A stretch of DNA of 64,000 bases from Haloarchaeobius amylolyticus (GCF_026616195.1 NZ_JANHDH010000004.1:62001-126000); one strand, 5' to 3'; shown: positions 55,673 to 63,355, counted from the stretch's first letter. Notes: generated by a model from the sequence alone, not told the origin. Translations and numbers: made by a program.

Positions 55673-55702
55673 CATTTTATCGCTCCCTCAGGGGTGAGGG
55701 AG
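55673..55702 (+). promoter_or_regulatory. promoter-hairpin leader A
   Basis: CATTTTATC followed by CTCCCTCA-GGGG-TGAGGGAG, a perfect 8-bp stem, ending 10 bases before ATG 55712. Same plan as leaders at 56267, 61592 and 62981: a TATA-like ATTTTATC, then a GC hairpin that would lie at the transcript start. The rest of the gap 55328-55672 has nothing I can support. Confidence 0.68.
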
Positions 55703-55711
55703 AATCCTCAG

Positions 55712-55987
55712 ATGTCGACAGACACAGACCCAACCAGCGACGAACAGTACAGACTTCCAGCCGACTTCGAGACGACCGAGCATGTCACACGAACCGACAC
55801 CGGAGCCTCAATCAAGATCACGATGACCCGGGGTACGGGCACTCGGGACCAGGACCGCCTCGAAGGGAAGGTGAAAGCACCGACTGTCGAACAGGCGAAA
55901 GCCGACGTGGATGAACTATTCCCGAAGCTGTGCCGCCTCGCCGAAGCCGCACGAGCGTTCGACCCGAGCATCGACACGACCGAATAA
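55712..55987 (+). CDS. DUF7389-like small protein
   Basis: A 91-residue protein: TEHVTRTDTGASIKITMTRGTGTRDQDRLEGKVKAPTVEQAKADVDEL is the conserved part seen in small haloarchaeal accessory proteins annotated DUF7389 (from memory, unverified). Beta-strand then helix. It follows leader A and precedes 56005 by 17 bases, so the two are one transcript. Function unknown. Confidence 0.72.
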   Translation: MSTDTDPTSDEQYRLPADFETTEHVTRTDTGASIKITMTRGTGTRDQDRLEGKVKAPTVEQAKADVDELFPKLCRLAEAARAFDPSIDTTE

Positions 55988-56004
55988 TCACATTTTCACC
56001 ATCC

Positions 56005-56265
56005 ATGACTCCACATCCATACGAATCCGACAGCCACGAACAGTTCGAACGACGCCAGCTCGCCCGAGACCGTGACCACAACAATGCACTCCAAATCGCA
56101 GAGGAGGACGCACGACACATCGTCACCGACCTCGTCGACGCCGGCATCGTCGCCCCAAATCCAGAATCGAAGCAGTTCAGACACCGCCCAACCGGAGAAG
56201 TATTCCACTCCTGCATCTGTCTCGCCTACTTCCATCGCGGCTGGCTAGCCGGCGTCGACGGCTGA
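56005..56265 (+). CDS. hypothetical 86-residue protein
   Basis: A soluble acidic protein with His and Cys residues: RDHNNALQIAEEDARHIVTDLVDAGIVAPN, then FRHRPTGEVFHSCICLAYFHRGWLAG. The first part looks helical like a small DNA- or protein-binding unit. ATG 56005 is the first after the DUF7389-like stop. Family not recognised. Leader B begins at its stop codon. Confidence 0.62.
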   Translation: MTPHPYESDSHEQFERRQLARDRDHNNALQIAEEDARHIVTDLVDAGIVAPNPESKQFRHRPTGEVFHSCICLAYFHRGWLAGVDG

Positions 56266-56266
56266 G

Positions 56267-56296
56267 CCATTTATCCTCCACCTGAGGGGTGAGAGA
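56267..56296 (+). promoter_or_regulatory. promoter-hairpin leader B (orphan)
   Basis: CCATTTATCCTCCACCTGAG and GGGTGAGAG, the least regular of the four copies. No intact gene follows. A 29-codon stretch ending at 56428 (SDQAEATGDDSEDL, LDYPDSPRTL) has protein-like composition but no start, as if the gene behind this leader were deleted. Confidence 0.55.
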
Positions 56297-56437
56297 CTTC
56301 GATTTCCACTCTCTGGATGGTCAGTTTCGATAGATTCAGACCAGGCGGAAGCCACTGGCGACGACTCTGAAGACCTGATAGCCGCCCAGACTGGTCTCGA
56401 TTATCCGGACAGCCCTCGTACTCTGTAGCATCCGGAT

Positions 56438-56944
56438 TCAGATCTCAGTTTCTTGCTCGATTACATGCTTGAAGTATTCGAGCTCGACAAGCGTGTGTTC
56501 GTAGGCTTCTCGTTCGATGTCTCCAATAGCGGTCAGCGCTTTTTCAGCAATGATTCCGAGCACTGTCACCGGTACGTGGGCCCATACCCGGTGAGAGAGT
56601 CGAGTCTGTCCAGCCGTCCGTTCGAGCTGTACGGTCCCGCCCTCTTCGACGGTGACTGTGACTGGGAATGGAGGCAGCGAATACGTACAGGTACCGATCC
56701 AACTGAACCGGCGCTCTTCGACGACGTCACGGATATCTGCCTTTATCATTCCCTTGACTGGCCCAACAGACTCACGCTGAAAGAAGCGAAGGTCGTCTCG
56801 GAGTGGCTTCTTCGGGTCCATGACGACCCACGTGCCGTCGTGGTCTGGATTGGACTGTTCCCAGAGCGTTTCGAATTCCTCCAGATGGGACCACACTGTC
56901 GCCGGTGATGCATCGATGCTGACCGCGGCACGTGCCTCTATCAT
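56438..56944 (-). CDS. SRPBCC/polyketide cyclase-like protein
   Basis: A 168-residue START-like protein: ARAAVSIDASPATVWSHLEEFETLWEQSNPD at the start, later GMIKADIRDVVEERRFSWIG and AEKALTAIGDIEREAYEHTLVELEYFKHVI as the long closing helix. This is the type used for ligand binding or coenzyme Q-like handling. It diverges from the HTH_10 gene at 57031, whose operator lies between them. Confidence 0.82.
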   Translation of the reverse strand: MIEARAAVSIDASPATVWSHLEEFETLWEQSNPDHDGTWVVMDPKKPLRDDLRFFQRESVGPVKGMIKADIRDVVEERRFSWIGTCTYSLPPFPVTVTVEEGGTVQLERTAGQTRLSHRVWAHVPVTVLGIIAEKALTAIGDIEREAYEHTLVELEYFKHVIEQETEI

Positions 56945-56981
56945 ACATCAGAAGTCCTTTCGCAGTGAGATTGGAGTTTCA

Positions 56982-56999
56982 CCCGAGTATATACGGAGT
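56982..56999. promoter_or_regulatory. CCCGAGTATATACGGAGT operator/promoter
   Basis: Contains TATA inside CCG-n8-CGG, 32-49 bases before ATG 57031. Nearly the same sequence stands at 57700-57717 at nearly the same distance from the next gene. It also lies in the region shared with the divergent SRPBCC gene. Confidence 0.6.
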
Positions 57000-57030
57000 G
57001 TTCTTATTGAAAACGAGTGAACCGACTACC

Positions 57031-57684
57031 ATGCACTCCGCCTCAGGGGTTCTCGTCTGGAACGATGGGCAGCTCCACCCCCTGCAAGCCGCAATCGAAG
57101 CCAGTCCGGCCGTGACGATTGAAAAGACACATCAGATCAACAGAGTTGGCGAACGGTTCGTCGAATTGAGCGAGTTCTCGGGCAATATAGCCAAGCTCGA
57201 GCAGGTGCTCTCTACTGAGGATTCCGTGCGCGACTTCACAGTCACGCATAAGACCGGACTCGCGTATGTCGAGTACGGCCAATCGTCGTCCCTAGCGGAA
57301 CTGTTTGCTATCCTCACTGCATACTCGCTCGTCCTCATACCGCCAGTCGAATACACCGATGAGTATCCCGCTTCTGGGATTCGCCTTACAGTCGTGGGGA
57401 CGGAGGCAGCGATAACGCAGATTACATCGAATATTCCCTCAGGGATTGACCTCTACCCAGAGCACGTCGGGGAATACGTTCCTGGGGGCAGTCAGCTGGA
57501 GGATTTGCTCACTGAGCGGCAACGCGACGTATTCGAGGTGGCCGTTGAGCTGGGCTACTACGAGATCCCCCGGGAAGCGACACACAAAGAGATTGCAGCA
57601 GCCGTGGACCGTGCTCCAGCGACAGTCTCGGAACAACTTCAGCGAATCGAAGCGAATCTACTGCCCCGCTATCTCAAGGGGTGA
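57031..57684 (+). CDS. HTH_10 (bacterio-opsin activator type) transcription regulator
   Basis: A 217-residue bat-type regulator. HTH_10: LTERQRDVFEVAVELGYYEIPREATHKEIAAAVDRAPATVSEQLQRIEANLLPRYL is visible as helices, at residues about 158-212. The N-terminal part (LHPLQAAIEASPAVTIEKTHQINRVGERFVELSEFSGN) is the input domain. ATG 57031; the frame is open to 56932 but would overlap the operator. It probably regulates itself and the dehydrogenase 67 bases downstream. Confidence 0.87.
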   Translation: MHSASGVLVWNDGQLHPLQAAIEASPAVTIEKTHQINRVGERFVELSEFSGNIAKLEQVLSTEDSVRDFTVTHKTGLAYVEYGQSSSLAELFAILTAYSLVLIPPVEYTDEYPASGIRLTVVGTEAAITQITSNIPSGIDLYPEHVGEYVPGGSQLEDLLTERQRDVFEVAVELGYYEIPREATHKEIAAAVDRAPATVSEQLQRIEANLLPRYLKG

Positions 57685-57699
57685 GCTCATTAACTATGG

Positions 57700-57717
57700 C
57701 CCGAGTATAATCGGAGT
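57700..57717. promoter_or_regulatory. CCCGAGTATAATCGGAGT operator/promoter
   Basis: Matches the site at 56982-56999 at 16 of 18 positions. It lies 34-51 bases before ATG 57751. TATAAT in the middle is the likely TATA box, so the same regulator would act on both promoters. Confidence 0.6.
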
Positions 57718-57750
57718 CGAATATACGCCTGATGGGTAGAGAGTATCTGT

Positions 57751-58842
57751 ATGTCTCGGACGGACACATCTATTCTCGTTGTTGGTGGCTACGGTACTAT
57801 TGGCCGGACTGTCTGTCGGGAACTCGCCGACAGCGAGCGGGAAAAGATACTTGCTGCAGGTCGATCTCCCCAGAAAGCCCGTCGATTTGCACGGTCGGTC
57901 GATGGCGTCGAGCCGCGAACGTTCGATGTGAGCGACGAGATGCACCACGCAGACGTCCTCAAAGACGTTGGAACGGTGGTGATGTGTCTGGACCAGGACG
58001 CCCCACACTTCGCAGAGGCATGTCTCGAGCGCGGAATCGACTACGTCGATATCTCGCCGACAGATTCGCTTCTCCGGGCGATTGAATCGTTCGACGAGGT
58101 CGCTCGCGGTCATGGCGCAACTGCCGTCCTCAGTGTTGGACTGTCTCCTGGGATGACGAACCTCTTCGTCGCCGAAGCACGTGAGGAACTCGATACTGTC
58201 GACCGAGCCGATATCACCCTGTTGCTGGGTATCGGTGAGGCGTTCGGCCCAGATACGGTCAAATGGACGATCGAGGATGCTCTGGGGAACTTCTCGGTTC
58301 AGAGTGACGGCGAAACGACTTCAGTGACCGGGCTCACTGATCCTCGGACGGTCGAGGTTCCCGGATGGGGGAGACGCCGAGCGTATCGGGCAAATCTCGC
58401 GGATCAACATGTACTCGCACGGACGACTGATATCCCAGTAATCGAGAGCCGGTTGTGTTATGACTCTCGTGTCCTGACTCGGTACCTCGCGGTGTTACGC
58501 CGAACCGGATTGTTCGAACCAATCGTGTCGTTGCTCGGCGTCGATGGAATCGTCCGACTGGCCGAGGTTTTCCCGTTCGGGTCCACGGAGTCGGTGATTA
58601 AAACCGAGGTCAGCGGTCGTGTGGACGGCCAGCTGAAACGAATCGACCAGTGGGTTCGGGGCCCCGATCAGGCTCGGGCAACTGCGATTGTCACTGCTCG
58701 AATCGCGCAAGCGCTGGGGCCCTCGCATCCGGCAGGCGTCCATCACATTCACGAAATATTCAGTAGTATCCAACTGTCGAAGGATTTACTCGAGTCTGGG
58801 TACGCTGTGGGGCGTTCAGAACACTGTGGAGAAAACTCCTAG
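57751..58842 (+). CDS. saccharopine dehydrogenase-like oxidoreductase
   Basis: A 363-residue protein. The Rossmann motif VVGGYGTIGRTVCRELAD at residues 11-28 and CLDQDAPHFAEACLERGIDYVDISP at 90-115 are typical of saccharopine dehydrogenase-like/YjbQ-type reductases. The central SVGLSPGMTNLFVAEA is the conserved loop between the two domains. Substrate unknown; true lysine-pathway enzymes are longer and this organism group does not normally use it. It is next to the HTH_10 regulator that shares its operator. Confidence 0.86.
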   Translation: MSRTDTSILVVGGYGTIGRTVCRELADSEREKILAAGRSPQKARRFARSVDGVEPRTFDVSDEMHHADVLKDVGTVVMCLDQDAPHFAEACLERGIDYVDISPTDSLLRAIESFDEVARGHGATAVLSVGLSPGMTNLFVAEAREELDTVDRADITLLLGIGEAFGPDTVKWTIEDALGNFSVQSDGETTSVTGLTDPRTVEVPGWGRRRAYRANLADQHVLARTTDIPVIESRLCYDSRVLTRYLAVLRRTGLFEPIVSLLGVDGIVRLAEVFPFGSTESVIKTEVSGRVDGQLKRIDQWVRGPDQARATAIVTARIAQALGPSHPAGVHHIHEIFSSIQLSKDLLESGYAVGRSEHCGENS

Positions 58843-59000
58843 CGTGGCTGCAGAGTATCTGGTCGGTCGCCCACAACTGAATCCAGGGGCTTCCGCCTTT
58901 CATCTCCGAGAGTTGTGCACGCGGTAATTGCCAAGGGGAGGTCAACACCTGGTTGGTGCGTGTTACACAGAGCTATGACGATAGAGAACAAGTGGAGACC

Positions 59001-59225
59001 ATGGATTCAGACTCACACGGCACTATAGCTCTCGGACTCGGCCTTGGAAACGCTCTTGGGGCCGGTACCGGGGTAGCGATCGGCGCTATCACTGGCGACC
59101 TTCCCTTTTGGTTAGGAATTGGCATCGGCCTCGGAGCGAGCATGGGAACCGCGATGGGTGTCGTGGTATCCCGCGGCAGAAACACTGGTGAGACGGGCGA
59201 GACTGAAGGTTTCAAATCAGTGTGA
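59001..59225 (+). CDS. glycine-zipper small membrane protein
   Basis: A 74-residue protein: GTIALGLGLGNALGAGTGVAIG and LGIGIGLGASMGTAMGVVVS are two Gly-zipper membrane helices, with a soluble Gly/Thr/Glu tail. ATG 59001 is preferred over 58953. Similar small genes occur in many haloarchaea. Function unknown. Confidence 0.65.
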   Translation: MDSDSHGTIALGLGLGNALGAGTGVAIGAITGDLPFWLGIGIGLGASMGTAMGVVVSRGRNTGETGETEGFKSV

Positions 59226-59250
59226 TCGCCGGTTCAACATCCCAAACGCT

Positions 59251-59272
59251 AGCGCACACTGAGAGGTGCGCT
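59251..59272. terminator. hairpin after glycine-zipper gene
   Basis: AGCGCAC-n8-GTGCGCT, a perfect 7-bp stem, 26 bases after the stop codon. No strong T-tract follows, so termination is uncertain. The rest of the 322-base gap to 59547 has only a partial repeat (CGTACCTCGG twice). Confidence 0.4.
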
Positions 59273-59547
59273 TCCACTCGAAGACCTCTGCCCAGAGTGG
59301 TTTCGAGTTGGAACAAGATGATAATCGATCATAGTATCAAGCGGGCCTGTGCCAATCTGGTGAGTCATATAGAGTAGTAGAAACTCATCAACGTACCTCG
59401 GGAAAATTACCAACTATCCCGTCCATTTTGTGATGTCCGTCTACAAATACCACCACAGAGCACCAACGGATATCACGTATTGATTACCGATGTGGTTATA
59501 TCTCCACTGGCCGTACCTCGGTCAATCGGCGGACAGTGGGGTAAATC

Positions 59548-61557
59548 ATGAGCACCAATCCTTCGACCAGCACCCCTCCTGGCCACCCTGATTCGACAGC
59601 AACTAGAGTCCTCCACGTCGACAGCAGTGCCGAATTCACCAGCGCCACACGCGACTTTCTCGAGAGGAGCAGTTCGGAGTTCGACATTCACTCGGTGAAC
59701 ACCGTCAAACAAGGACTTCGACTCCTCGAGTCGAAGAAATTCGACTGCGTCGTCAGCGAATACGAGATGGCAGGGCAAGACGGCCTTGACCTACTCCAGG
59801 CAGTTCGTGACTCCCATCCTGACCTCCCGTTTATTCTCTTTACTGAAAGCGGGTCTGAGGAGGTCGCTTCTCAAGCGATTACAGACGGTGTGTCTGGATA
59901 CCTCCTGAAGGGCAATCCAGATCAGTTTGAACTCCTTGCAACCCGGATTCTGAGTCTCGTCGAGAGACCGCGAAAGAGCGACGCACTGGCAGCAATTCAG
60001 GAGCGAAACGAACGCCTCGGCCGGGTCTCTGCCGACGCGTTCTTCGAATGGAATCCCGCGACGAACAAGGTGTGGCGGAGCGATGGCTACTCGCGCGTGT
60101 TCGACTATGGTGATGACGAAGTCGGGGACGACTTCGACTGGTGGAAGGCTCGGTTGCACCCTTCTGATCGCGAACGTGTCCTCCATCGACTGCACTCCGT
60201 GCTCGAAGACGGTTTACCGCGGTATGAGGATTCTTTTCGGTTCAAGCTCGGAAACGGGACATACGGCCATGTCTCGGCACGAGCGTGTGTGACTTACGAT
60301 TGCGAGAACCAACCAAAGACCGTCACCGGGGCTCTAACCGACATCTCGGACCGAATCATCCGCGAACGAGAACTACAGCGGTCCAATACCCGCCTCGAAC
60401 TCGCACTGGAAGGAACCGATACTGGGGTCTGGGAATGGGACCTCGAAAGTGACGAGGTGATCTGGGACGAGACGACAGCGCGACTCTTCGGCGTTCAGCC
60501 TGACACCTTCGAGGCGGATTTCGAGTCGTATCTATCGCTGATACACGCTGCCGACAGACAGCAGGTGAGACAGGCTATCGATAGCGTCCTCGAGACTGGT
60601 GAATCGGCTAGTATCGTCCACCGAACCCACCCCGACCATACCAGTCCTGTTCGGTGGATCGAGGGGAAAGGAAGGCTAATCCAGCGGGGGGGAGTGCCGG
60701 TCCGCATGGTCGGCCTCTGCCGTGACATCACCACAGCACGCGAGCGGCAGTTACAACTCGAGCGGCAGGCTGAACAGTTGTCCGAATTCGCGGGTCTCGT
60801 TAGTCATGACCTCAGGGGACCGCTCTCTGTCGCCTCTGGCTATCTCGAGCTCATCGACCCCATCGACGACGCTCAGTCGGAATCCATCGCTGCTGTAGCG
60901 AAGATGCATCGTAAAATGGATACATTAGTCTCTAACCTACTTTCGCTTGCACAACAGGGACAACCAATCGGGACGCTGTCACCGGTTTCGGTGGCAGCCG
61001 TGGCCCAGACAGCATGGAATTTAGTCGAGACGGAGGGTGCAACCCTCCGGGTCGAGCCCGACGCTACTATCCTCGCCGATGAGGACCGCCTCCCGCAGCT
61101 CCTCCAGAACCTCTTCCAGAACGCAGTCGTCCATGGGACAGAATCCCGCCAACCCGACGACGTGCAAGATGACCCAGATAGAGGGGAGGACCAACTCGGA
61201 ATCGAGACAGGACAAGCGTCTGTCGAGAGAGACACTGGTCCTATGACCGTTTCGGTTGGATGGTTCCAGAAGCCCGGGACGGATAGCGAGTCGGTCGGCG
61301 GACTCTTCGTCTCAGACCAAGGACCGGGCATCGACGAAGCACACCGAGATCAGGTCTTCGACGCTGGTTTCTCACTTTCATCTGGCGGGACTGGCTTCGG
61401 TCTGGCGATTGTCCACCGTATCGCGACAGCCCACGGCTGGGGGGTCAGGGTCACTGAAAGTGACACCGGCGGTGCTCGATTCGAATTCACCGGGGTAAAG
61501 CGAGTTCGTGGCGAGGAGGGCAGTCCATCGTGGTCACCTGAATCCGGCCTGGAGTGA
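59548..61557 (+). CDS. hybrid histidine kinase with REC and two PAS domains
   Basis: A 669-residue protein. REC domain at 20-135 (VLHVDSSAEF, CVVSEYEMAGQDGL, YLLKGNPDQF) has Glu71 where the phosphoacceptor Asp should be, though Asp25 and Lys121 remain. Two PAS domains follow at about 155-285 (FFEWNPATNKVWRSDG) and 285-410 (TDTGVWEWDLESDEVIWDET). Then DHp with His420 (FAGLVSHDLRGPLSVASGY), N box LLQNLFQNAVVHG, G1 DQGPGID and G2 GTGFGLAIVHRIA. There is no membrane helix, so it is a soluble sensor. No separate response regulator is adjacent. Confidence 0.88.
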   Translation: MSTNPSTSTPPGHPDSTATRVLHVDSSAEFTSATRDFLERSSSEFDIHSVNTVKQGLRLLESKKFDCVVSEYEMAGQDGLDLLQAVRDSHPDLPFILFTESGSEEVASQAITDGVSGYLLKGNPDQFELLATRILSLVERPRKSDALAAIQERNERLGRVSADAFFEWNPATNKVWRSDGYSRVFDYGDDEVGDDFDWWKARLHPSDRERVLHRLHSVLEDGLPRYEDSFRFKLGNGTYGHVSARACVTYDCENQPKTVTGALTDISDRIIRERELQRSNTRLELALEGTDTGVWEWDLESDEVIWDETTARLFGVQPDTFEADFESYLSLIHAADRQQVRQAIDSVLETGESASIVHRTHPDHTSPVRWIEGKGRLIQRGGVPVRMVGLCRDITTARERQLQLERQAEQLSEFAGLVSHDLRGPLSVASGYLELIDPIDDAQSESIAAVAKMHRKMDTLVSNLLSLAQQGQPIGTLSPVSVAAVAQTAWNLVETEGATLRVEPDATILADEDRLPQLLQNLFQNAVVHGTESRQPDDVQDDPDRGEDQLGIETGQASVERDTGPMTVSVGWFQKPGTDSESVGGLFVSDQGPGIDEAHRDQVFDAGFSLSSGGTGFGLAIVHRIATAHGWGVRVTESDTGGARFEFTGVKRVRGEEGSPSWSPESGLE

Positions 61558-61591
61558 AGAACAGGAGTCGTTCGGGGTAGTCGCAGTTCCG

Positions 61592-61623
61592 CCATTTTAT
61601 CTCCCCCTGACGGGTGAGGGGGA
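61592..61623 (+). promoter_or_regulatory. promoter-hairpin leader C
   Basis: CCATTTTATC, then TCCCCCT...AGGGGGA (7-bp stem, 8-base loop). It ends 27 bases before ATG 61650 of the ArdC-like gene. Confidence 0.68.
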
Positions 61624-61649
61624 CTTCTAGTTCTCCTCGGAGATGCACG

Positions 61650-62636
61650 ATGTCGATGAATTCCTACCAAAAAGTTGCCAGCAGCGACAGCACCGAAGAC
61701 GAAGAAACGACTCACACGCAGTTCGACGACTCCGACAGCCGTCGCGACGAGATGCACGACTCGCTGGAAGCGTGGGTCGACCAGTTCGCCGAGCTCTCAG
61801 ACGAAGCCAGAGCCAGCGCAGAACTGCAGGAGTGGCTCGAGGTCCAATCGCACTTCCACGACTACTCGTATCGGAACACGCTGCTCATCAAGCACCAGTG
61901 TCCCCACGCGACGAACGTCGCCGGCTACAACACCTGGGTGAACGAGTTCGACCGCCACGTCCAGGAGGGCGAATCGGCCATCTGGATCTGGGCACCCATC
62001 ATCACGAGCAAATGCCCTGGCTGTGGGAACTCACCTTCGTATCACGACAGTAGCGACTGTGAATACGACGAGACGCCACCCGACGAGTGGGACGACGGGC
62101 TGGTCGGCTTCAAACCCGTCCCCGTGTTCGATGTCTCCCAGACGGACGGCGAACCCCTCCCCCAACTCGAAACCGAAGCACAGGGTGACGGCGGCGGCGA
62201 GGCCGAACTCCTCGATGCGCTGCTCAGAGCCGCTCCAGAACTGGGCGTTCGTGCGACCATCGTCCCACCGGAGAACTGGGAACACGGGAGCGCAGACGGC
62301 GTGTGTACCGAGCGAAGCACCTACGACTGCTCCCTGCTCGTCGAGGTGAAAGACACCGAGAACGAGGCACACGTCGCCAGTGTGCTCGCCCACGAGTACG
62401 CACACGCTCTCCTGCACTTCGACGTCGACGACCGAACCGAACAGGAGAAACGTGAGGTCGAAGCCGAGAGCACTGCCTACGTCGTCTCACAGTACTTCGG
62501 GCTGGATGCCTCGAACAGCGCGCTCTACGTCGCTGCCTGGGACGGTGACCCTGCAGATGCAATTCGCGAGCGGTTACAACGGATTGTGGGTACTGCACGG
62601 GAGATTATCGAGGCCATCGACCGACAGGGAACCTGA
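61650..62636 (+). CDS. ArdC-like zinc peptidase protein
   Basis: A 328-residue protein. The N-terminal ArdC-like single-stranded DNA-binding domain reads LQEWLEVQSHFHDYSYRNTLLIKHQ, VAGYNTWVNEFDRHV, AIWIWAPI and GFKPVPVFDVSQTDGEPLP, interrupted by a zinc finger (CPGCGNSPSYHDSSDC). The C-terminal metallopeptidase has HEYAH at 248-252 (VLAHEYAHALLHFD) with Glu in EVEAESTAYVVSQYF. Bacterial ArdC is an antirestriction protein brought in with plasmids. Start ATG 61650; leader C precedes it. Confidence 0.86.
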   Translation: MSMNSYQKVASSDSTEDEETTHTQFDDSDSRRDEMHDSLEAWVDQFAELSDEARASAELQEWLEVQSHFHDYSYRNTLLIKHQCPHATNVAGYNTWVNEFDRHVQEGESAIWIWAPIITSKCPGCGNSPSYHDSSDCEYDETPPDEWDDGLVGFKPVPVFDVSQTDGEPLPQLETEAQGDGGGEAELLDALLRAAPELGVRATIVPPENWEHGSADGVCTERSTYDCSLLVEVKDTENEAHVASVLAHEYAHALLHFDVDDRTEQEKREVEAESTAYVVSQYFGLDASNSALYVAAWDGDPADAIRERLQRIVGTAREIIEAIDRQGT

Positions 62637-62694
62637 ACTAAACAGGGGATACTTCTATGATATTCCAGTGATTATCGATAGACGAACTGAACCC

Positions 62695-62916
62695 ATGCCC
62701 GGCGAACCAACGCCGATTCCACCGTATGCCGAGGATTGCCTCGACGTCCTGTCCGGGACTATCTCACCGCCCGAACCCGGCATCGACGAAACAACCGCGA
62801 AACAAGTGCTGGTGAATGAAGGATTCACGAAGGGCGACGCGAAAGAGGCGCTCGAAGTACTGGAGATGCGTGGGTATATCTATCGGGTGAACTCCGAGAT
62901 TCGGATCACAGATTGA
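62695..62916 (+). CDS. hypothetical 73-residue winged-helix-like protein
   Basis: Small soluble protein: PPYAEDCLDVLSGTISPPEPGIDETTAKQVL, then GFTKGDAKEALEVLEMRGYIYRVNSEIRITD reads like helix-helix-wing. It may be a small DNA-binding unit. It follows the ArdC-like stop by 58 bases and is probably in the same transcript. Family not recognised. Confidence 0.6.
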   Translation: MPGEPTPIPPYAEDCLDVLSGTISPPEPGIDETTAKQVLVNEGFTKGDAKEALEVLEMRGYIYRVNSEIRITD

Positions 62917-62980
62917 AGCTTTCGACAGTGGGAGACCTCCCTGCTCGCTTCACATTTTTCCTATCTTCAGTTCGCAGAGG

Positions 62981-63013
62981 CCATTTTATCGGCCCCTACC
63001 GGGGTGCGGGGCC
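62981..63013 (+). promoter_or_regulatory. promoter-hairpin leader D (orphan)
   Basis: CCATTTTATC, then GGCCCC...GGGGCC around TACCGGGGTGC. Behind it only a very short frame (MQISSSDWR) precedes the next gene at 63155, which has its own TATA box (ATTAAAATACG, 63124-63134). So this leader either gives a long 5' region to 63155 or once drove a lost gene. Confidence 0.55.
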
Positions 63014-63154
63014 ATTCTCGTGAGCATCATGCAGATCAGTAGCTCTGACTGGAGGTGATACTTCCAGCTCCCGAATGCCCCGGCAGCGATGCGTAGTCGG
63101 CGTTTCTGGTCGACTGCCCGAGCATTAAAATACGATACTGGAACTAAGCAGATC

Positions 63155-63355
63155 ATGACAGAGACAACGTGGTACACTGCCGATCTTGACCTCGCTGAGC
63201 TTGTTGACGAACTCCCCAGGGAACGTGTCCTGACCCGTGTTCAGGTCCGGGAAGATATCACGGCCGAAGAGCGTGAACTCGTCGCTGCCCACCTCCGTGG
63301 GCTCGCTGCGTCGTTGAGTGAACAAGAAGAACATCCTCGCCCGCAGGTCGAATGA
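63155..63355 (+). CDS. hypothetical 66-residue protein
   Basis: Acidic helical protein: TWYTADLDLAELVDELPRERVLTRVQVRED, then ITAEERELVAAHLRGLAASLSEQEEHP. ATG 63155 is about 30 bases after a TATA box, so leaderless. The frame is open to 63089. It converges on the surface protein gene, whose stop is one base away. Family not recognised. Confidence 0.62.
   Translation: MTETTWYTADLDLAELVDELPRERVLTRVQVREDITAEERELVAAHLRGLAASLSEQEEHPRPQVE

Follow-up and report, generated by a model that had tools for sequence, protein, structure and literature searches.

A T-tract and covarying hairpin precede ArdC and other plasmid genes in haloarchaea: a candidate control element of plasmid establishment

Main finding

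A T-tract followed by a short hairpin stands ahead of nearly all genes in the antirestriction blocks of transferable haloarchaeal plasmids, and since the sequence of the stem changes while its pairing is kept, comparison of the copies points to a new, widespread control element, one that possibly turns on genes during the entry of plasmid DNA into a new cell. In our estimate it is probably a promoter-proximal control element of the establishment genes of conjugative plasmids. The more specific reading that we prefer, tentatively and with slightly less than even confidence, is a promoter class of a plasmid-establishment regulon in which the hairpin would form the spacer and most likely act on entering single-stranded DNA.

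The element in the window and its genome

The window (the whole stretch of 64,000 nucleotides that was analysed) lies on contig C4 of a haloarchaeal genome of six contigs and 4.6 Mb. It had been read, from its sequence alone, as carrying four hairpin sites on the plus strand. The strand was confirmed and the coordinates were correct within 1 nt; three of the sites are intact copies of CATTTTATC plus hairpin, at 55673, 61593 and 62982 (Table 1), whereas the copy at 56268 is decayed, with a T-rich part that reads CATTTATC, a broken stem and a weak fold (z -0.8). The position of the decayed copy matches that of an intact copy in a sister module on contig C5. Element 1 is predicted to fold as single-stranded DNA with -8.1 kcal/mol (z -3.1), and its hairpin form recurs at C3:427987 (-) and C5:2678 (+).

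Table 1. Coordinates of the elements and adjoining genes, counted from the first letter of the window.
Feature	Position	Strand	Basis or remark
T-tract / putative TATA-like box, element 1 (ATTTTATC)	55674..55681	+	T-tract profile conserved
Hairpin, element 1: CTCCCTCA-GGGG-TGAGGGAG	55683..55702	+	Fold, and same form elsewhere
DUF7389 protein gene	55712..55987	+	PF24115, E=2.7e-19; start 9 nt past hairpin
86-aa ORF of the module, without Pfam family	56005..56265	+	Conserved on C5
Degraded element 2 (CATTTATCCTCCACCTGAGGGGTGAGAGAC)	56268..56297	+	C5 counterpart is the ArdC element position
T-tract / putative TATA-like box, element 3 (ATTTTATC)	61594..61601	+	Pattern match
Hairpin, element 3: TCCCCCT-gacgggtg-AGGGGGA	61602..61623	+	Homologous elements before ArdC orthologues
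ArdC-like gene	61650..62636	+	ssDNA-binding N-terminal domain and M78-type metallopeptidase
T-tract / putative TATA-like box, element 4 (ATTTTATC)	62983..62990	+	Pattern match
Hairpin, element 4: GGCCCC-taccggggtgc-GGGGCC	62991..63013	+	Orphan, without long ORF directly 3'

The calls of a DUF7389 gene, an ArdC-like gene and an orphan element at 62982 all stand. The matches of the ArdC-like protein to ArdcN and M78 are slightly below the curated cut-offs; a HEYAH motif is present and the protein is ~60% identical to annotated ArdC-like proteins. Modules with DUF7389 and ArdC genes occur on three replicons of the same genome (C3, C4 and C5), and the module on C5 is whole, with its ArdC element 3 nt past the stop codon of the ORF. 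A 5.2 kb insert in the window (56268-61600), with genes for a polyketide-cyclase-like protein, an HVO_0513-type regulator, a dehydrogenase and a histidine kinase, separates the decayed copy from the intact ArdC element, as if recombination had used or duplicated the element. Downstream of the orphan element (62982-63158) there is only a nine-codon ORF, and the gene at 63158 is preceded, ~30 nt from its start, by an AT-rich TATA-like region of its own, ATTAAAATA.

Form and distribution

In its general form, a copy begins with a T-tract (GTTTTT[C/T], which reads ATTTTATC in the window), followed after 1-5 nt by a stem of 5-9 bp with variable sequence, which encloses a G-rich loop with the consensus tGAnGGGTGc; a start codon comes 6-56 nt past the hairpin, at a distance that varies between gene families. 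The sequence-only reading had described CATTTTATC with a C-rich/G-rich stem; CATTTTATC with CCCC/GGGG is one sub-form, and CCCC/GGGG was one stem type among several when loci were read individually.

Support for a family came from comparisons with controls. The exact pattern had 7 matches in the genome of the window and 0 in the reversed control; hairpins of at least 7 bp with a GGGTG loop numbered 41 in the window and related plasmid DNA, versus 2-9 for six control pentamers; and a mismatch-tolerant scan yielded 125 non-redundant elements versus 20 in reversed or complemented control sequence. Further copies exist, and confinement to one module was too narrow a view: a loosened pattern that describes a strict sub-form, CCCCTGAN{0,4}GGGTGNGGG, was present in 109 of 293 Halobacteriales genomes, more than a third of those sampled, and in 46 of 87 genera, with few matches in reversed controls. 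Strict-core matches in the genome of the window (n=10) were on C3 (minus strand), C4 (plus) and C5 (plus), with none on C1-C2. A phylum-wide sample gave about ten scattered matches outside Halobacteriales, several of them odd in form. The 78 matches from a scan of IMG/VR were read as chance because nearly all were without a stem, and a scan of a genome collection gave only three haloarchaeal records, the remainder being chance. The CATTTTATC sub-form occurs in Halonotius and Halohasta (L033, L015, L020, L039) before another cluster of small genes, encoding MSTEYN... proteins, and not before ArdC.

No Rfam family matched in 112 kb containing many elements, and our literature search found no paper on haloarchaeal plasmid hairpin promoters or describing the element, and none naming DUF6610, DUF6735, DUF6166 or DUF7389.

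Conservation of pairing

Folding z-scores of individual copies were mostly weak; the case for the hairpin rests on comparison. Elements were chosen by the fixed core CCCTGAnGGGTGnGGG only, which left the outer pairs free to vary. Pair 5 was Watson-Crick in 37 of 51 elements (20.3 expected; the maximum of 2000 shuffles was 30) and pair 6 in 25 (13.2 expected; maximum among shuffles 24). A gap-free alignment of 43 sequences had 80.1% paired cells versus 72.5±1.5 in shuffles, 33 double changes versus 21.1±3.3, and a covariation score of 0.177 versus 0.090±0.016, values reached in each case by 0 of 500 shuffles (slid controls, at most 0.088); shuffling removes the kinship of the sequences only partly, and the sequences span many genera and several gene families. 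The proposal of compensatory change in the stems is borne out by this covariation of the outer pairs. Stems differ wholly between gene families under a similar loop (CCCC/GGGG, GAGCCTCCA/TGGAGGCTC, GCGCCGGC/GCCGGCGC, CTCGCCTGC/GCAGGCGAG), and stem registers are not uniform across the families. We regard base pairing on one strand of the element as established by these sequence comparisons.

The manner of conservation bears on the possibility that the element is a double-stranded operator, an inverted repeat between TATA box and start that would bind a plasmid-encoded dimeric repressor or activator of the whole block, comparable to the EGeRS and RegP576 sites on Gram-positive plasmids. Such a position would be suitable for a repressor site, the establishment genes of p576 are under repressor control (PMC8708921), and the blocks contain many small HTH and RHH genes. 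The site of a dimer should conserve its half-sites, however, and here the stems vary completely with pairing kept, and the bases that vary least (A, GGGTG) are placed asymmetrically in the loop. We therefore judge an operator to be quite unlikely.

Genes behind the element

When nine annotated plasmid stretches were searched with a detector for T-tract plus hairpin, the element was found before about 60 genes, a few of them probably by chance. The families behind it include plasmid-type TFB, ArdC, DUF6166, DUF6610, DUF6735, DUF7389, DUF7567, a SWIM zinc-finger family and several unnamed ones. The distance from the T-tract to the ATG was nearly constant within each family (66-71 for TFB, 74-76 for most ArdC, mostly 55-59 for DUF6166, and 35-37 in one small-protein family), which implies that the element belongs to the gene downstream of it.

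In upstream regions of the best ArdC homologue loci, chosen without regard to hairpins, a T-tract and recognisable hairpin were judged by eye to precede 28 of 29 orthologues. An automatic filter for five perfect pairs passed only 7 of these regions, since ArdC elements most commonly have four perfect pairs (CGCC/GGCG) and a larger loop. In the case of the bacterial plasmid R388, recipients need ArdC after conjugation (PMC7213743). The plasmid-type TFB genes are themselves preceded by the element, and within the genome of the window these TFBs are 83-85% identical to each other and at most 44% identical to other TFBs. The plasmid-specific TFB at G000 C3:396181, C4:144466 and C5:7584 is a constant member of the regulon, and some related plasmids carry plasmid TBP genes too. 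A palindrome, GTTAACCAAC / TGTTGGTTAAC, is repeatedly present some tens of bases 5' of the T-tract, in many cases ahead of DUF6610 genes (L214 3817-4075, minus strand; likewise at L136, L138, L143 and L153), and has the look of an operator of ordinary, double-stranded type for a second regulator.

The association with downstream genes also bears on the idea of a terminator or insulator, by which T5C would end the upstream transcript with the help of the GC-rich hairpin and the element would have no role for the downstream gene. T5C, the commonest form of the T-tract, stops 95% of transcripts in a Haloferax reporter (PMC7237163), and many elements are close behind an upstream stop codon. The elements nevertheless track the downstream gene, as judged by the nearly constant T-to-ATG distances, and at least seven of them sit in intergenic regions with a divergent upstream gene, where there is nothing to terminate. 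Given these divergent contexts a pure terminator was rejected, and we hold this explanation as a whole to be very improbable. The T-tract may serve both upstream termination and a downstream promoter.

Promoter geometry

The basal promoters of haloarchaea have a TTWT box ~26 nt before the start, a BRE reading CGAAA and WW at -10. The first T of the T-tract is 28.65±1.87 nt before the end of the hairpin and 17.8±1.4 nt before its centre, and the former distance is close to the haloarchaeal spacing of TATA box to start (in halovirus HF2, the TATA box begins at -26, PMC8707807; the haloarchaeal TATA motif reads TTWT, PMC4983044). Most copies of the T-tract fit TTWT, and a minority reads TTGTTC or TTTGTC, unlike TATA. 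No AT-rich box was visible upstream of the T-tract in the aligned profile, and TTWT was not enriched there (18 of 125 elements versus 25.3 expected by shuffling); in 4 of the 8 divergent regions inspected the T-tract was the sole TTWT before the gene. The spacing and the absence of an upstream TATA box make the T-tract the best available candidate for the TATA box, with the hairpin at about -22 to -1. The TATA-like placement claimed in the sequence-only reading is thereby upheld, and its leader hairpin inside the transcript has less in its favour than a hairpin formed by the spacer DNA of the promoter, as the geometry would put the hairpin upstream of the start. By its position, the hairpin most likely fills the TATA-to-start spacer and would be absent from the RNA.

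Two departures from an ordinary promoter were observed: GAAA, as in the archaeal BRE, was found at only 1 of 125 elements, and the -10 region is GC-rich where ordinary haloarchaeal promoters have WW. A double-stranded promoter of such GC-rich form would be expected to melt poorly. Folding as a single strand, or a specialised TFB, would account for this. The T-tract is outside the hairpin duplex, which counts against the single-strand reading, as TBP would have to bind there to an unpaired box.

Against this geometry has to be set the reading of the hairpin as part of an RNA leader, in which promoters would be distant and the hairpin in the mRNA would be a signal for translation, stability or processing, bound by a plasmid or host protein. 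Covariation together with a conserved loop is typical of RNA, the genes are packed co-directionally with elements soon after the previous stop codon in several places, and mismatches on the sense strand are slightly more often G.T than A.C (8 versus 3, too few to decide between RNA, sense DNA and template DNA). On the other hand, an upstream TATA-like box is not enriched, read-through from upstream is impossible for the elements in divergent regions, the spacing of T-tract and hairpin is promoter-like, hairpin and ATG are about 6 to 56 nt apart, depending on the gene family, Rfam gave no match, and structured leaders are scarce in Haloferax (PMC4983044). An RNA leader hence seems to us unlikely.

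Linkage to conjugation modules

PLSDB assigns an MPF_T-like mating system to several element-bearing plasmids, and an annotated VirB4 is encoded on some. A search for VirB4 gave matches in 184 of 293 genomes, and element blocks and VirB4 T4SS occur on common replicons. The suggested link to antirestriction was corroborated in that the element precedes antirestriction and other plasmid genes adjoining T4SS modules.

The strands of elements and VirB4 (at least 70% identity) were compared where both were on one contig within 130 kb. Among the matches listed, 37 of 38 main-clade modules had every element on the same strand as VirB4 (73 of 74 elements overall), counts that are not fully independent owing to shared ancestry. 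The exception was one distant element on G027:C2, a replicon that has several copies of ArdC as well as two T4SS in opposite orientation; each T4SS has elements on its own strand. The clade of 65-67% VirB4 identity had its elements opposite the VirB4 strand in 4 of 4 modules among the matches listed (G286:C4, G191:C2, G239:C11 and G104:C1). Contigs with at least two core elements were one-stranded in 33 of 34 cases, again among the matches listed. As the genes behind the element are co-directional, the strand lock alone is no proof of a link to transfer.

Proposed mechanism and its meaning

We propose that the establishment (leading-region-like) genes of conjugative plasmids in haloarchaea are jointly controlled by a promoter class of their own. 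In it, the T-tract would serve as a TATA-like box and the hairpin would occupy the spacer between box and start, with the mRNA presumably starting at or just past the hairpin. The hairpin may act as a folded single strand of DNA, most likely the strand that enters the recipient via the T4SS, and genes for ArdC antirestriction, TFB and accessory functions would thereby be switched on early. Taken furthest, the elements would be archaeal single-stranded DNA promoters: on entering via the T4SS, the strand would fold into many small hairpins, at each of which the host polymerase, together with the plasmid-type TFB, would find a start, and antirestriction genes would be expressed ahead of second-strand synthesis. 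We offer this fullest version as a speculation on the doubtful side.

In the literature that we found, there is essentially no description of the establishment of archaeal conjugative plasmids in new cells. One cis-element, legible by eye, marks a whole regulon across the sampled halophile genomes that carry it and so lists candidates for anti-defence genes. If the hairpin acts on single strands, early expression from entering DNA would have arisen with the archaeal, eukaryote-like transcription machinery, and archaea would have arrived separately at a solution to the problem that Frpo addresses in bacteria.

Relation to known systems

The promoters of the phage N4 virion RNA polymerase have a short hairpin, centred near -11/-12, that marks the start on single-stranded DNA; they are recognised by a phage single-subunit polymerase and are without a TATA-like box. 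Their likeness to the element is in geometry only. The element has the covarying stem of a structured RNA leader and matches no curated Rfam family. The intergenic repeat promoters of HF2 resemble it in that they are short, repeated, belong to a mobile element of haloarchaea and have their AT box near -26, but HF2 is a lytic virus whose repeats conserve sequence (alpha, beta and gamma motifs), and the passages cited describe no family-wide hairpin (PMC8707807).

EGeRS1 and EGeRS2 of pLS20 and p576 are likewise control sequences that scattered establishment genes, ardC included, have in common and that are repeated before them (PMC8708921); among double-stranded control sequences of such genes they are the nearest precedent. 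EGeRS2 is a promoter with a -35 box and heptamer operators bound by RegP576 (PMC8708921), whereas here it is pairing that is conserved and not sequence: the symmetric, conserved half-sites expected of an operator for a dimeric protein are replaced by stems that vary between families.

Frpo and ssi sequences of F and ColIb-P9 (PMC11541004) are hairpin-forming DNA, with copies oriented alike, ahead of the antirestriction and establishment genes that conjugative plasmids carry. The element shares a position before leading-region and antirestriction genes (28 of 29 for ArdC, with blocks on the same replicons as VirB4 T4SS). As to orientation, its strand agrees with that of VirB4 in the main clade and is opposite to it in the 65-67% clade. 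It differs in its archaeal TBP/TFB-type transcription, its one short stem of 5-9 bp and its many copies per plasmid. The -35 and -10 boxes of Frpo are paired inside long stems, in a text that makes no mention of archaea (PMC11541004), whereas the T-tract is outside the stem and unpaired, and for this reason we do not class the element as Frpo; by analogy, it would at most work like Frpo. Frpo is nonetheless the closest known system in role.
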